From contig JAGHTU010000034.1 of the NCBI GenBank assembly GCA_018065185.1, positions 25,646-89,645 of the forward strand: a stretch of 64,000 nucleotides of DNA. Reading direction: 5' to 3'. Of this stretch, positions 2,812 through 43,133 are shown in pieces. The DNA is from Candidatus Equicola faecalis (lineage in GTDB: Bacteria > Bacteroidota > Bacteroidia > Bacteroidales > Bacteroidaceae). Made by a program: the position numbers and the translations under genes. The notes below the pieces were generated by a model, which was not told the origin of the DNA, made no database searches, and saw only the letters and a program-made list of their open reading frames with translations. Position 1 is the first letter of the stretch. Every line of letters begins with the position of its first letter.

Positions 2812-3858
2812 TCAAATAGTATGTTCTTGATTATTTGCAATGAACTTCTTGTTCAACTTAGCAACAATCTTTTCATTCAATGGGGAACAAATATAGATTC
2901 TGAGTTTATCAACAAAAATGCAACACATATAAAATACCACAACTGTCGCGACCAATAGCAAGCCGGCAGGTATCGGAGCAAAAGTGTCGTAAATATAATG
3001 ACATGCTCCGAACAAAACTTTTCCGCCAACTGTCTGGGAATGTATTAGATAAACCGAAAGTACTGATGCGCTTATCCAGTTTATCCACTTGTTTTGAATC
3101 TTCCAAGTCATTACCCAGTGGAAAAAAGTGACTGAAGCCAGTAACACCATCGGTGAATTGTATCTGAAAGAAAACAGAATAGCCATTGGAGTAAACCCAA
3201 CTTTTATGGCATGCATCATTGTGCATAAAACACAGATTGCCAACCATTTATACCCCCCCCCAGTTTGTAGAGCTTTAATTGGCTTTTCTGATATGAAGCA
3301 GCCAATGTAATAGAGGACTATAAAATGAATAACATGATATCCGCTCACGCTGACCTCGGCACTTTGATGCATATATCCAAGATAAACGTCAAGAATGAGC
3401 ATCATCATCAACATGGGTGTCTTCTTGGAGTCTGGCAGATTATCATATCCTGCATTAAGCAATGGCGCGATAAGGTATAATCCAAAATAGGCAACGATAA
3501 ACCACATTCCACTCTCACTTAATGCAAAGACGCTTCTCTTCAACGCATCCATCCAAGTTACCTCGTGTAACACAAGACCTATTGCAGAGAACGTTATTGC
3601 ATAGAATGCACATTGCGTAAAGAGATTAACAAAGCCTTTCCAACTCTGCTCGATACGGAAATATCCACTTATCAGGACGAAGCAGTTAACCGCAATTATT
3701 GACATGCTCATAAGAAAAACCTGAAAGTGATGAGCAGGATAATTCACGGCTATATTCAAATCCGCATACAAAGATTGTAGGACATGATTGCATAATACCC
3801 CAAGCATACAAAGTATACGAAGGAGTTCAAAATTGGATTGTCTTTCTTTTGATGCCAT
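2812..3858 (-). CDS. Acyltransferase 3-family membrane O-acyltransferase with poly-G tract
   Basis: This 348-residue integral membrane protein starts SNFELLRILCMLGVLCNHVL, the usual opening of acyltransferase-3 proteins with the conserved RILxxxGVxxxH pattern. About ten hydrophobic segments follow, and the family acylates cell-surface sugars. At 3253-3261 the coding strand has nine consecutive G, read as three glycines in LQTGGGYKW, so the frame is currently open. A change of one base would truncate the protein a little past its middle. Its stop is 1 bp before the next start and it overlaps its upstream neighbour by one base, so it sits inside an operon. The poly-G tract suggests phase-variable O-acetylation. 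Confidence 0.85.
   Translation of the reverse strand: MASKERQSNFELLRILCMLGVLCNHVLQSLYADLNIAVNYPAHHFQVFLMSMSIIAVNCFVLISGYFRIEQSWKGFVNLFTQCAFYAITFSAIGLVLHEVTWMDALKRSVFALSESGMWFIVAYFGLYLIAPLLNAGYDNLPDSKKTPMLMMMLILDVYLGYMHQSAEVSVSGYHVIHFIVLYYIGCFISEKPIKALQTGGGYKWLAICVLCTMMHAIKVGFTPMAILFSFRYNSPMVLLASVTFFHWVMTWKIQNKWINWISASVLSVYLIHSQTVGGKVLFGACHYIYDTFAPIPAGLLLVATVVVFYMCCIFVDKLRIYICSPLNEKIVAKLNKKFIANNQEHTI
3253..3261 (-). repeat. Poly-G(9) homopolymer in acyltransferase gene
   Basis: The plus strand reads nine C in a row, so the coding strand has G9. The host gene is in frame at this length. Two other runs of 9-10 G occur within about 16 kb, each in a predicted acyltransferase-type gene, which makes a chance composition effect unlikely in this AT-leaning locus. 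Confidence 0.9.
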
Positions 3859-38279: not shown

Positions 38280-39386
38280 CTATTTTGCGAGGTTTGCTAT
38301 TCCGTTAAGTTCGTTCTGTATATATTGGAGGCTGGCGATTTTGGCTTTGGTCTGAGCCACGTCCAGGCGAACCGTATTATCGGAATTGAACTCGGTAAGG
38401 ATATTGCGCTTCTCATCCCCTTCCTTAAAGAACTTGTCGTAATTCAACCCACGGTTATCAGCAGGAACACGATAAAAGTTACCCATATCGACCGCCTTGG
38501 CGCACTCTTCGTTCGTCAGCAACGTCTCGTACATCTTCTCCCCGTGGCGGATGCCAATGACCTTAATCTCGGGACCTTCCCCTGCCCCTTCCTTAAAGGA
38601 CGGCGATTGGTGCCTGAACAACTCCCGCACTGCCTCTGCCTGGGTCTGGATGGTGCAGGCAGGAGCCTTCTGCACGAGGATATCTCCGTTCTGACCATTC
38701 TCGAAGGCAAAGAGCACGAGGTCAACAGCCTCTTCGAGGGACATTATGAAGCGGGTCATCTTGGGTTCGGTGAGGGTGATAGGGTTGCCATTCCTTATCT
38801 GGTCAATCCAGAGAGGAATGACAGAGCCTCGGGAGCACATCACGTTGCCGTAACGGGTGCAGCAGATTTTGGTGCCGTGGAAATTGCCGTTTTCATCGTA
38901 AGTTCCGCTGTTGCGCGAGCGTGCCACAGCGATTTTCTCCTCCAGCGCCTTGGAGATTCCCATCGCGTTGATGGGGTATGCGGCTTTGTCGGTGGAGAGG
39001 CAGATGACGCACTTAACTCCCTCATCTATAGCTGCATCCAAAACGTTATCGGTACCGATGACATTGGTCTTTACAGCTTCCATCGGGAAGAATTCGCAGC
39101 TCGGCACCTGCTTGAGGGCGGCTGCGTGGAAGATGTAATCCACGCCCTTCATTGCGGTCTTGAGCGTGCTCTTGTTGCGCACGTCACCGATGTAGAATTT
39201 GATTTTTCCTACAACCTCAGGCATCTTGGCCTGATACTCGTGGCGCATATCGTCCTGCTTCTTCTCGTCGCGTGAGAAGATGCGGATTTCTGCGATGTCT
39301 GTCTTTAGGAAGCGGTTGAGAACCGCGTTGCCGAAGGAACCCGTTCCTCCTGTGATCATCAATGTTTTACCTGCAAAAATGCTCAT
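38280..39386 (-). CDS. capE: UDP-GlcNAc 4,6-dehydratase/5-epimerase, CapE-like (intact)
   Basis: This 368-residue SDR is the intact member of three related copies. It shows [68 protein letters not shown] (with Met replacing the usual Tyr, as in CapE/FlaA1 types) and GEKMYETLL. With CapF and CapG nearby it would start UDP-N-acetyl-L-fucosamine synthesis from UDP-GlcNAc. Residues in [16 protein letters not shown] are an in-frame insert absent from copy 2 at 29 kb; they lie before the [14 protein letters not shown] strand and are probably tolerated in a loop. Confidence 0.88.
38571..38613 (-). repeat. Small palindromic in-frame insert in capE
   Basis: Minus strand tcgccgtcctttaaggaagg encodes [11 protein letters not shown] and includes a small inverted repeat. 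The homologous position in capE copy 2 reads ELFGGKKEDIKVIG with no insert, so this window shows a filled and an empty site. Confidence 0.75.
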
Positions 39387-39402
39387 AAAAACTTCGTTTT
39401 TA

Positions 39403-39835
39403 GTTTAGAGCTTAGAGTTTAGAGCTTAGAGAGAAGGGAGGTGCGGTAACCCGAAAGGATTCGCGCCTGTTCTTCTATTATACGCTCCATGTTCTGATGC
39501 TCTTCTTTGTTTATATAATTTAAATCTAATGCTAAATCCAACTGACTCATAACTTCCATTAACGAGCCATACGACAGTTCTATGAAATGAGCCTGATCCT
39601 TCAGTGACTGCCTTCCTGTTCCTTCCGCAATATTCGAGGTCACACTTACAGCAGCCCTTCTCAACTGATCGCCCAGAGCAAATTTCTCGTCTTGAGGAAA
39701 ACATTTCACCAATCTATACACTTCCCCCACCAACGCTCTACCTTTTTGATAGCAGATTAGCCTTCTGAAATTAAACTCCGCTCTTTCCATAATCTCTAAG
39801 CTCTAATCTCTCACCTCTAAGCTCTAATCTCTCAC
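39403..39835. mobile_element. Repeat-flanked four-helix-bundle (IVP-like) element
   Basis: The left end carries ttagagcttagagtttagagc and the right end ctctaagctctaatctctcac; the units are inverted copies (TTAGAGCTTAGAG against CTCTAAGCTCTAA). Between them is one small ORF (39419-39790). The element sits exactly between capG and capE, 16 bp from the capE start. Confidence 0.8.
39419..39790 (-). CDS. Four-helix-bundle protein (23S rRNA intervening-sequence protein family)
   Basis: The 123-residue protein is all helical: FRRLICYQKGRALVGEVYRLVKCFP, FALGDQLRRAAVSVTSNIAEGTGRQSLKDQAHFIELSYGSLMEVMSQLDLA and a last helix ending ILSGYRTSLLSKL. This is the signature of the IVP/four-helix-bundle family, first known from insertions in 23S rRNA genes. 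Biochemical role is unknown; nucleic-acid binding has been proposed. The gene starts and stops within inverted repeats, showing it moved in as a unit between capG and capE. Confidence 0.85.
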   Translation of the reverse strand: MERAEFNFRRLICYQKGRALVGEVYRLVKCFPQDEKFALGDQLRRAAVSVTSNIAEGTGRQSLKDQAHFIELSYGSLMEVMSQLDLALDLNYINKEEHQNMERIIEEQARILSGYRTSLLSKL

Positions 39836-40995
39836 CACTCCTTCCTCCACACCATCTTGTTGACGATGCCGACGTAGCTCTGGATGATTTTAACCACCTT
39901 GGTGCTGACATTTTCATCGACATAGTTGGGCACGGGGATGCCGTGGTCACCGTTGGCGTTCATCTCGACTGCCGTGTCAACTGCCTGAAGCAGACCCTTT
40001 TCGTCAATTCCACTAATAAAGAAGCATCCTTTATCAAGAGCCTCTGGACGTTCGGTAGATGTACGGATACAGACGGCTGGGAACGGATGCCCAACTGATG
40101 TAAAGAATGATGATTCCTCAGGAAGTGTGCCTGAATCGGAAACGACCGCAAATGCGTTCATCTGAAGACAATTATAGTCGTGGAATCCGAGAGGCTCATG
40201 CTGGATGACGCGTGAATCTAATTTGAATTGCATAGCTTCAAGTTTCTTGCGACTTCTTGGATGACAGCTATAGAGGATAGGCATGTCGTATTTCTCAGCC
40301 ATTGCATTAATGGCGTTGAAGAGACTGAGGAAATTCTTCTCGGTGTCGATGTTTTCCTCACGGTGGGCACTCAAAAGAATGTAGCGACCCTTTTGCAAGC
40401 CCAGGCGCTGGTGCACATCCGATGCCTCTATCTCGGCAAGATTCTGGTGAAGCACCTCTGCCATCGGGGAGCCAGTGACGTAGGTGCGCTCCCTTGGCAA
40501 TCCGCACTCTGCAAGATAGCGTCTTGCGTGCTCGGAGTAAGCCATGTTGACATCACTGATGATATCCACAATGCGGCGGTTCGTCTCCTCTGGAAGGCAT
40601 TCGTCTTTACAGCGGTTCCCTGCTTCCATGTGGAAGATAGGAATGTGGAGGCGTTTTGCTCCTATTACGCTCAGACAACTGTTGGTGTCGCCTAACACAA
40701 GCACTGCATCTGGCTTGATCTCTACCATCAATTTATAGCTCTTGTCTATAATATTGCCCATAGTCTCACCCAAGTCTGCTCCTACTGCATCCATATAGAC
40801 ATCAGGGTCTGCGAGTTTCAAGTCCTTGAAGAAGATGCCGTTAAGGTTGTAGTCGTAGTTCTGGCCTGTGTGCGCCAGTATGCAGTCGAAATACTTACGG
40901 CATTTGTTGATGACGGCTGCCAAGCGAATAATCTCAGGACGTGTGCCTACTATAATAAGCAACTTGAGCTTCCCGTTGTTTCTAAATTCTTTCAT
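39832..40995 (-). CDS. capG: UDP-N-acetylglucosamine 2-epimerase family, CapG-like
   Basis: From the ATG at 40995 the protein is about 387 residues; the track start at 41067 adds 24 residues encoded by the inserted cgcagatt repeat and is unlikely. KLKLLIIVGTRPEIIRLAAVI, LAHTGQNYDYNLNGIFF, LVLGDTNSCLSVIGAKR, HMEAGNRCKDECLPEETNRRIVD and VTGSPMAEVL are hallmarks of the WecB/CapG group. With CapE and CapF it would give UDP-L-FucNAc. It is separated from capF by a GxxExxY element and from capE by an IVP element. Confidence 0.88.
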   Translation of the reverse strand: MKEFRNNGKLKLLIIVGTRPEIIRLAAVINKCRKYFDCILAHTGQNYDYNLNGIFFKDLKLADPDVYMDAVGADLGETMGNIIDKSYKLMVEIKPDAVLVLGDTNSCLSVIGAKRLHIPIFHMEAGNRCKDECLPEETNRRIVDIISDVNMAYSEHARRYLAECGLPRERTYVTGSPMAEVLHQNLAEIEASDVHQRLGLQKGRYILLSAHREENIDTEKNFLSLFNAINAMAEKYDMPILYSCHPRSRKKLEAMQFKLDSRVIQHEPLGFHDYNCLQMNAFAVVSDSGTLPEESSFFTSVGHPFPAVCIRTSTERPEALDKGCFFISGIDEKGLLQAVDTAVEMNANGDHGIPVPNYVDENVSTKVVKIIQSYVGIVNKMVWRKEW

Positions 40996-41011
40996 TTCAT
41001 TCAATAATTTA

Positions 41012-41461
41012 GCGCAGATTACGCAGATTCTTTTGATTTCGCAGATTGTGCTATAGATTATTTGCACGTCTGTAAATGGATTTTGCGATATCTGTGGTTT
41101 TAAAATTAACTAATATTCCTAATTTCTTGCCTGTCAGTTTCAAATACGTCATTAGCTGAGAGAAAAAGACCTCTTGCATAGTTGCTACTGCCTTCAGCTC
41201 CACTATAACCTTGTCGTCAACCAGCATATCAATGCGAAAAGCATTGGGAATGGTCACACCTTCGTATATAATAGGTAGGCTAACCTGCGTCTTTACCAGA
41301 CATCCCATCTTTTCCAATTCGATACGCAATGCAACTTCATAGGCAGATTCCAGTAAACCTGGGCCAAGTTTATTGTACACATTAAATATTGCCCCACGAA
41401 TCTTATATGATATTTCGTTTTCTATCTCCATATCTATCTGCGTAATCTGCTCAATCTGCGC
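41012..41461. mobile_element. Repeat-flanked GxxExxY element
   Basis: The left end has gcgcagattacgcagatt, the right end atctgcgtaatctgctcaatctgcgc; the right is an inverted copy of the left. The enclosed ORF is a GxxExxY protein. The element lies directly after the capF stop, next to a small palindrome ccctgtggtcacacaggg. Confidence 0.82.
41051..41431 (-). CDS. GxxExxY protein (PD-(D/E)XK-like)
   Basis: From the ATG at 41431 (the track start at 41482 adds residues read from the repeat) the protein is about 126 residues. SYKIRGAIFNVYNKLGPGLLESAYEVALRIELEKMG contains the GxxExxY motif (GLLESAY), and FRIDMLVDDKVIVELKAVATM fits the D-ExK part of a PD-(D/E)XK nuclease-like fold. Function is unknown; the fold suggests DNA binding or cleavage. 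It is bounded by inverted cgcagatt repeats. Confidence 0.85.
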   Translation of the reverse strand: MEIENEISYKIRGAIFNVYNKLGPGLLESAYEVALRIELEKMGCLVKTQVSLPIIYEGVTIPNAFRIDMLVDDKVIVELKAVATMQEVFFSQLMTYLKLTGKKLGILVNFKTTDIAKSIYRRANNL

Positions 41462-41468
41462 CCTGTGG

Positions 41469-43133
41469 TCACACAGGGTCAAAGAATGTATCTGGTTTGT
41501 TGGGATCGAAGATTTCGTTGCAGTACATTACTGTGACGAGATCTTCGGTGTCGGAGAGGTTGATGATATTGTGAGTGTAGCCAGGGAGCATAATCACGCT
41601 TTGGATACGTTCGCCAGAGACAAAATAATTCAGTACAGGCCTCTCTCCAACTCTCCCCACAAGGAAGAGGGCTTTTTTTAGGATGTTGGTGGTGTCGTCT
41701 GTCTTGAAAAGCACCTCTTCATTTGTGAAACGAATGACTGAAAATCCATGCTTTTGCAGATAAACTGTACGTTGGAAATCTAATCTCTTTTGTTCAGTTT
41801 CATTATGATAGCCACCATCAATCTCTATAACCAGTCCACTTGCCAAATCCACGAAATCAACAATATATTCACCAATGATATGTTGACGACGAAATTTTGC
41901 ATCAAAATTTCCTCTTCTCAAAATCTCCCACATAACAGATTCTGCTTCTGTAGGATTCTTTCGCATCTCAACAGCCTTTTCTTCTAATTCTGTATAAAGA
42001 GAAGGATCTGCCGTATTATAAAGCTTCTCTCCCTCCCTTGTGGGGAGGGCTGGGGAGAGGCTTCGCATCTGTATAAGTCCGTGGCCTTTGACTACGATGA
42101 ACTGTTCCCATTTGGTGTGGTGCCAGTGTTGTCCCTTGGTGATTCCGGGTTTTGAGACGTTGATGCTGACCTGTCCGCAGTTGAGTGTATGAACCAGCTC
42201 TGTGAATGAGCCACGATTATCAACATTCATCTTTAGGTCGAAGATAGCCCCTTCTTTTGGAAGATAGCTCAGATACGTAGAGTAGAGTCGTTTAGCGAAG
42301 CTGTTTGCCGGAATCTCTGGAATCATCAATGTCTGAAGCATTTGTTTGAATTGATTCAGGAGGTCAACTATCTGTCCGAGGGTTGCCTTATGAGTCACTG
42401 GACAATAGCAGTACTTCCCTTCCTCTGCAGGTATGACTTTGAGTCCTTCAAACTCACAGTGATGTTCTGCTCCTTTAAGAGCGTTTATCATCTCTGCAAT
42501 GAGGTCGTCAATATAAAGTAACTCCAGTTCGACACTTGGGTCGTTGACCTGTATCGGGAGATCATTGGCGATGTTGTTACAGAATGTGGCAACTGCACTG
42601 TTGTAATTGGGCCTGCACCATTTACCATAAAGGTTCGGGAAACGATAGATTAACACGCGAGGTGTTAATCCCGCAGATTCCGTGTAAACCGCAGATTTCG
42701 CAGATTTATCTTGATTTCGCAGAAATTCGGCCTCATATTGCAGGAAAAGGTCTTCGCCCGCCTTCTTGCTACGACCGTACTCGCTATTACCGAAGCGTCC
42801 GGTGAGTGAAGCTTGCTGACTGCTGGAAAGCATCACGGGACATCTGTTGTCATATCTCTTCAGCGTATCGAGCAACGTGCTTGCGAACCCGAAGTTGCTT
42901 TGCATAAACTCTTCTTGATTCTGAGGTCTGTTCACCCCTGCCAGATTGAACACGAAGTCCGCTTCTTTACAATATGCTTCAAGTTCTTCTGGAGTAGAAT
43001 CAATGTCATATTCGAACACTTCTTCAATAGACAAGTCGCCATAGCACTTGGCTTTCCCGTCCTTGATATTCCTGAGTTCTAGACATAAGTTCTTGCCCAC
43101 AAATCCTTTTGCACCTGTTACTAATATCTTCAT
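41469..43133 (-). CDS. capF: CapF/WbjC-like reductase-cupin with in-frame DUF559 insertion
   Basis: The 554-residue ORF joins an SDR domain (MKILVTGAKGFVGKNLCLEL, LSSSQQASLTGRFGNSEYGRSKKAGED, IYRFPNLYGKWCRPNYNSAVATFC) to a cupin (INVSKPGITKGQHWHHTKWEQFIVV and LPGYTHNIINL). That is CapF/WbjC, the second enzyme of UDP-L-FucNAc synthesis, normally about 370 residues. About 142 extra residues (roughly 356-497) sit inside the cupin: a repeat end (SPALPTREGE), a DUF559 endonuclease domain (MRKNPTEAESVMWEILRRGNFDAKFRRQHIIGEYIVDF) and a closing repeat. The frame stays open on both sides and cupin motifs resume at PVLNYFVSGERIQSV. A second insert of about 19 residues lies near residues 138-156. Confidence 0.87.
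   Translation of the reverse strand: MKILVTGAKGFVGKNLCLELRNIKDGKAKCYGDLSIEEVFEYDIDSTPEELEAYCKEADFVFNLAGVNRPQNQEEFMQSNFGFASTLLDTLKRYDNRCPVMLSSSQQASLTGRFGNSEYGRSKKAGEDLFLQYEAEFLRNQDKSAKSAVYTESAGLTPRVLIYRFPNLYGKWCRPNYNSAVATFCNNIANDLPIQVNDPSVELELLYIDDLIAEMINALKGAEHHCEFEGLKVIPAEEGKYCYCPVTHKATLGQIVDLLNQFKQMLQTLMIPEIPANSFAKRLYSTYLSYLPKEGAIFDLKMNVDNRGSFTELVHTLNCGQVSINVSKPGITKGQHWHHTKWEQFIVVKGHGLIQMRSLSPALPTREGEKLYNTADPSLYTELEEKAVEMRKNPTEAESVMWEILRRGNFDAKFRRQHIIGEYIVDFVDLASGLVIEIDGGYHNETEQKRLDFQRTVYLQKHGFSVIRFTNEEVLFKTDDTTNILKKALFLVGRVGERPVLNYFVSGERIQSVIMLPGYTHNIINLSDTEDLVTVMYCNEIFDPNKPDTFFDPV
41641..42060. mobile_element. DUF559 endonuclease element inside capF cupin
   Basis: The left end carries ctctccaactctccccacaaggaagaggg and the right end ctctccctcccttgtggggagggctggggagagg; they are inverted copies. 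The interior encodes a DUF559 domain (Vsr-like PD-(D/E)XK family): FRRQHIIGEYIVDFVDLASGLVIEIDGGYH and VIRFTNEEVL. The whole insert is a continuous frame with the host gene. Confidence 0.85.
42667..42722 (-). repeat. cgcagatt repeat insert inside capF SDR domain
   Basis: Minus strand ctgcgaaatcaagataaatctgcgaaatctgcgg is read in frame as RNQDKSAKSAVYTESAG between the ALEKF-like helix and VLIYRFPNLYGKW. The units are the same class as those flanking the GxxExxY gene 1.2 kb away, but there is no ORF here, so it looks like a non-autonomous copy. Confidence 0.78.

Follow-up and report, generated by a model that had tools for sequence, protein, structure and literature searches.

A predicted GxxExxY nuclease gene flanked by inverted arrays of 9-nt units: a probable mobile cassette at operon junctions of Bacteroidota

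The element at positions 41012 to 41461 of the window, i.e., the whole stretch of 64,000 nt analyzed here, consists of a GxxExxY gene (PF13366/TIGR04256, PD-(D/E)XK) between inverted arms of approximately 9-nt units (CGCAGATTA) and is probably a small mobile cassette, putatively driven by its nuclease. Comparison of related genomes indicates that such cassettes are mobile, with repeated gain and loss at gene boundaries, mostly between co-directional operon genes; that the nuclease drives the movement is what we infer. The data suggest an apparently undescribed and widespread type of mobile DNA behind a family of "hypothetical proteins."

RESULTS

The GxxExxY element and its surroundings

The window represents a capsule locus in a Bacteroidota genome (G000:C42) with the minus-strand gene order capF, GxxExxY, wecB, S23 gene, capD, and ugd. 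The relevant features are as follows.

39402 to 39839, minus strand: S23/four-helix-bundle element (23S rRNA IVS protein family) with CTCTAAGCTCTAATCTCTCAC inverted ends
39832 to 40995, minus strand: wecB/UDP-GlcNAc 2-epimerase gene, downstream of the GxxExxY element
41012 to 41047, plus strand: left arm, three inward-pointing CGCAGATT units
41051 to 41431, minus strand: GxxExxY gene, 126 amino acids, PD-(D/E)XK nuclease superfamily
41436 to 41461, minus strand: right arm, CGCAGATT-GAGCAGATT-ACGCAGAT, in inverse orientation to the left arm
41469 to 43133, minus strand: capF-like host gene (UDP-2-acetamido-2,6-dideoxyhexulose reductase), upstream of the element, with two in-frame inserts
41639 to 42061, minus strand: DUF559 nuclease-domain element, in frame within capF, with GCCTCTCCCCAGCCCTCCCC... 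inverted ends
42666 to 42726, plus strand: gene-less, repeat-only insert of CGCAGATT units, in frame within capF

Both arms are composed of two to three tandem units of about 9 nt, CGCAGATT(A), directed inward; in the left arm, CGCAGATT is found at positions 41013, 41022, and 41040 of the plus strand. The preliminary description had interpreted the two ends as inverted copies of one 18-bp unit. Inverted copies are indeed present, with 16 of 18 positions complementary between 41012 to 41029 and 41444 to 41461, but the proposed unit is better read as tandem units of about 9 nt, and a better inverted pair (15 of 15 positions) is formed by GCAGATTACGCAGAT at 41014 to 41028 and 41436 to 41450. A chance origin of the repeats was ruled out by shuffling and random placement: CGCAGATT occurs eight times in the window versus 2.5 times expected, a count reached in none of 100 shuffles, and the inverted-repeat score within 60 nt of the GxxExxY gene is 30, whereas random placements in the window yielded at most 24 (n = 5,644).

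The assignment of the gene product as a PD-(D/E)XK-like GxxExxY protein was borne out by profile matches above the curated cutoffs, both for TIGR04256 (E = 2.8e-39, 134.1 bits, cutoff 35) and for PF13366 (E = 6.8e-38, 130.1 bits, cutoff 22). Without exception, the 94 proteins compared, that of the window included, have the G, E, and Y residues of the eponymous motif as well as D, ExK, and Q, and since these nuclease residues are kept throughout, the nuclease is probably active. The best PDB fold match of an AlphaFold model of the window protein (pLDDT 75, four sequences) was SSO0001, a RecB/Cas4-like nuclease (E = 0.011), which is no more than suggestive of a RecB/Cas4-like fold; I-Bth0305I was a weak fold match. 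A phage gene was considered and rejected, as GxxExxY had no significant match in PHROG.

As described before, the element lies directly at the capF stop codon (41469 to 41471), from which it is separated by 7 nt. On the opposite side, the likely ATG start codon of wecB at position 40995 is 16 nt away from the element, and the listed GTG start falls within the arm. A short palindrome (CCCTGTG TGAC CACAGGG, 41462 to 41479) spans the capF stop; its counterpart in the rumen MAG L066 (CCCAGTG TAGC CACTGGG, approximately 3831 to 3850) features a change on one side that is compensated on the other. The palindrome may be a trace of how the insertion arose. The only Rfam families found in the window were RNase P and a tRNA.

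Related cassettes and inserts in the same locus

Two further cassettes with the same layout, other genes, and other arm sequences are located near the GxxExxY element. The S23-family element, located in the same operon at a distance of 1.2 kb, contains a gene (39419 to 39790) identified as PF05635 by profile match. The DUF559 insert is missing from capF in five relatives. The site of the repeat-only capF insert is empty in L008, L010, and L011, and at the loop where the window holds this insert, capF of L009 and of L066 carries differing in-frame inserts; this one loop thus contains inserts of differing sequence, all in frame, in three genomes. In L066, capF has a second loop insert, which is encoded by GCAGAT units.

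Two copies of CCCCTTCCTTAAAG(A/G)AC, 168 nt apart, are found in capD (38417 to 38433 and 38585 to 38601), one of them coding for a 14-residue stretch; they look like a gene-less insert of the DUF559 type. DUF559 domains also occur in frame within unrelated host proteins (L014, L016, L018, L022, L023, and L025), which, with names assigned by eye from sequence, include an ABC-F ATPase, a helicase-like protein (two genomes), a DegT aminotransferase, and an NAD-epimerase; the L014 host reads as a leucyl-tRNA synthetase and carries a second, gene-less in-frame insert. The order of capD, capF, and wecB varies among L112 (G044), L066, and the window (38280 to 43133), with cassettes in the gaps, and the cassettes may be recombination points.

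Gain and loss at operon junctions

That the element was inserted, as originally proposed, is supported by gain and loss and by empty sites in relatives. Without the element, capF and wecB overlap in G049 (L010) and are separated by approximately 110 nt in G009 (L011). The insertion found in the window is also present in L066 (capF|GxxExxY|wecB, protein identity 90%), i.e., some copies are stably inherited, and in G044, where the order of the two host genes is reversed, a related GxxExxY gene separates wecB from capF and S23 elements occupy the adjacent gaps. The same gene order without repeats in most relatives, a pattern indicative of old vertical inheritance, was not observed.

The korA-korB junction was read at 70 congener loci, and changes were counted on a korB tree. 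The junction is empty at 23 of the 70 loci (gap of at most 12 nt, or overlap), and 21 have short gaps, several with repeat units only. GxxExxY is present at 12 loci, S23 at 6, and DUF559 at 2; six loci have longer gaps, of which four resemble gene-less hairpins of the S23 type and one is probably due to a misplaced start. The remaining one, L234, has the appearance of a GxxExxY element with an internal deletion, most of the gene being gone and both arms retained. The distribution of GxxExxY on the korB tree corresponds to at least 11 gains or losses, 6 of which are forced by well-supported branches. Sister genomes differ at the junction in carrying DUF559 versus GxxExxY or S23 versus an empty site; a sister pair with GxxExxY versus S23 has weaker support. 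At 67 of 82 loci, GxxExxY is co-directional with both neighbors, as expected if the gene needs operon transcription or if other orientations have been purged.

Inverted arms as a property of the protein family

GxxExxY was found in 130 of 200 congener genomes, with zero to eight copies each, and in 59 of 118 Bacteroidota. Similar repeats around other GxxExxY genes, which the preliminary description had suggested looking for, were found both genus-wide and phylum-wide. When the upstream flank was compared with the inverted downstream flank at 92 genus loci, the median was 43 for true pairs versus 18 for mispaired flanks (Mann-Whitney, p ~ 1e-49), the loci being phylogenetically nonindependent and many of the genomes incomplete MAGs; in the phylum-wide sample (28 Bacteroidota loci), the values were 31.5 and 20 (p ~ 4e-14), with a mostly CACAGAG-like unit. 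Two-unit matches cluster in the GxxExxY flanks and are mostly oriented inward. The unit sequence varies between elements (e.g., CACAGATTT, CGCAGATTA, CACGGATTA, CACGAATT, ACGAAG, CACAGAG, and AAAGATTT) and is common to both ends of one element. Arm similarity grows with protein identity (74 loci, orthologous pairs left out; Mantel rho 0.217, null SD 0.031, 0 of 2,000 permutations). Paired and mispaired flanks also differed for S23 elements (p ~ 1e-11) and DUF559 elements (24 loci, p ~ 2e-7), each with its own repeat class; the S23/four-helix genes (window 39402 to 39839; L129 to L157) have cognate tandem-unit arms of the GAGTT type. A copy on a Gemmatimonadota plasmid has CGCAGAGGA-type hairpins on either side, the upstream one being perfectly paired in the predicted fold, and no clear arms were seen around fusobacterial and Persicobacter copies.

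Two GxxExxY genes of G138 (L056 and L071) are 99.5% identical, reside in paralogous host loci, and differ in the arms immediately next to them: one has the arrangement arm-gene-arm, whereas the other is flanked by two complete gene-less hairpins.

Gene-less copies

Two-unit matches CRCRGATNNCRCRGAT numbered 2,301 in the 200 genomes versus 66 for the reversed control, with a mean of 15.6 per genome in the presence and 3.9 in the absence of GxxExxY (p = 9e-6). Gene-less copies that were inspected are often hairpins of 60 to 130 bp at gene ends. The hairpin class of G045 (19 matches) is that of the arms of its own GxxExxY gene, L098, and is missing from 103 of 120 genomes. The ACGAAG class is confined to 5 of 200 genomes, 4 of which have GxxExxY with ACGAAG arms; these four genes count as one event because they are orthologous copies. 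Seven genomes (G103, G081, G119, G048, G074, G067, and G060) contain many CRCRGAT units and no PF13366 match, and units are thus maintained or spread where no gene is detected; in these genomes, the gene may have been lost, its contig may be missing, or another mobilizer may be present. In the genome of the window, a search for the unit class of the element located it at the capF-wecB locus only, with a solo in-frame array and no dispersed doublets.

The flanks of L037, L055, L071, and L073 contain gene-less units with a multi-hairpin insert of about 150 nt between the arms, whose closing stem is CAGATGA...TCATCTG and which has no Rfam match. Gene-less hairpin relatives of the S23 elements occur at korA-korB. 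An Rfam search of 19 loci returned no family, and known structured RNAs therefore do not account for the inserts.

DISCUSSION

Comparison with known systems

In its layout, the GxxExxY cassette resembles the S23 intervening sequence (IVS) of 23S rRNA in Leptospira and Coxiella, an element of approximately 430 nt with one small ORF inside inverted repeats, a patchy distribution, and a proposed selfish or mobile origin, whose ORF has long been suspected to serve mobility (PMC4990558). S23 cassettes occupy the korA-korB slot, as GxxExxY cassettes do. In contrast to the IVS, GxxExxY is an unrelated PD-(D/E)XK nuclease (PF13366) and not the S23 four-helix protein, its sites are boundaries of protein genes (capF/wecB in the window) and not 23S rRNA helices, and its arms are made of tandem 9-nt units, for which selection on RNA pairing was not seen.

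The dispersal of the GxxExxY units matches that of REPIN/RAYT systems (PMC3116915). In both cases, a low-copy nuclease gene is flanked by a repeat class that corresponds to the gene and is dispersed as gene-less inverted doublets (hairpins); cognate flanking and dispersed repeats were found for the GxxExxY family as a whole, the genome of the window lacking the dispersed form. RAYTs are HUH/Y1 transposases, whereas GxxExxY is RecB/Cas4-like PD-(D/E)XK according to Pfam and predicted fold, its units are tandem and 8 to 9 nt long, and the gene is gained and lost along with the arms. The in-frame insertion of Rickettsia palindromic elements is matched by the repeat-only and DUF559 copies (PMC10969869). 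With these elements and with MITEs, the cassettes share short gene-less inverted repeats and in-frame copies in host proteins; the difference is that no transposase-bearing parent is known here, the candidate parent encoding a nuclease. Compared with insertion sequences, the element has terminal repeats but no transposase. Small selfish nuclease genes are likewise represented by homing endonucleases, free-standing or in introns, whose folds are of the PD-(D/E)XK or Vsr-like type (I-Ssp6803I and I-Bth0305I); these are not known to have terminal inverted arms or dispersed copies lacking the gene.

The cassette belongs to none of the S23 IVS, REPIN/RAYT, and Rickettsia palindromic elements, from each of which it differs in its protein, its target, or both, and we read it as an S23-IVS-like layout with REPIN/RAYT-like dispersal and an unrelated nuclease. 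In a search of open-access journal articles, no description of mobile GxxExxY elements was found, nor were there matches for DUF559 with inverted repeats as mobile, for PDDEXK_3, or for the family names combined; a passing mention of GxxExxY was found.

Proposed mechanism and alternative explanations

We tentatively propose, at somewhat less than even chances, that GxxExxY acts as mobility enzyme for a hitherto undescribed class of transposable elements, in which a RecB/Cas4-like PD-(D/E)XK nuclease recognizes tandem 9-nt arms and spreads its own gene as well as hairpins without the gene to operon junctions, the S23 and DUF559 cassettes being parallel systems that use different proteins and repeat codes. 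Under the mobile-cassette reading, which we consider more probable than not, the protein would recognize its own unit, as duplex or as folded single-stranded DNA, and cut either this unit or a target; repair or replication by the host would then copy the arms plus gene, or an internally deleted hairpin, into the new site. GxxExxY and its unit would thereby be a counterpart of REPIN/RAYT pairs in their presumed mode of action, based on a different enzyme. Dense operon junctions would be favored because both neighbors stay intact and the gene obtains operon transcription. Annotations of the common gene families GxxExxY, S23, and DUF559 usually go no further than "hypothetical" or a domain name. 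Should these genes form mobile cassettes, each with its cognate repeat code, many operon genes called "hypothetical" would be selfish inserts and many unexplained palindromic repeats would acquire a source; in addition, the old question of whether the rRNA intervening-sequence ORF has a role in mobility would become testable in a system that offers an obvious nuclease and DNA substrate along with naturally empty sites.

S23 is not a nuclease and yet has the same layout, so the nuclease may not be what moves the cassette. Accordingly, hairpin repeats might owe their spread to replication or recombination in the host or to another enzyme acting in trans, with GxxExxY, S23, and DUF559 as captured cargo. 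Such a passenger role would explain why three unrelated proteins, including the non-nuclease S23, share one layout and the same slots, why units are present in genomes without PF13366, and why the nearly identical genes L056 and L071 differ in their arms. It is nevertheless rather unlikely, since every protein family has its own repeat class, the arms follow the protein phylogeny, and the active-site residues are invariant in a manner not expected of neutral cargo.

It is very improbable that the element is instead an intervening sequence acting at the RNA level, the arms of which pair in the transcript and are excised by RNase III, rendering the insertion harmless. The layout is that of the S23 IVS (PMC4990558), and co-directional elements are transcribed; the predicted excess of changes producing G-U over those producing A-C in the arms was absent, however (184 versus 182 at 81 loci, i.e., no bias indicating selection for an RNA stem), and the elements are mostly intergenic, where excision is unneeded. 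Little credence can likewise be given to fixed regulatory hairpins (terminators or attenuators) next to an old, vertically inherited accessory nuclease, e.g., for phage defense or DNA repair: gene-less hairpins do often follow stop codons or lie between convergent genes, and a Cas4/RecB-like fold would suit such a nuclease, but gain and loss at a single slot are patchy, arm sequences are specific to each element, regulatory hairpins would be expected to be conserved by site and not by nuclease clade, and PADLOC gave only weak Cas4-like matches for the protein, upon which a defense system was rejected.

Two unusual arrangements of GxxExxY genes were encountered. The L058 region (G086:C68:6002-6838) contains a tandem pair with equal match scores, 495 nt apart. 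In three genomes of one genus (G225:C9, G253:C1, and G237:C22), GxxExxY lies within an 883-residue open frame, which may represent either a fusion or an in-frame insertion.
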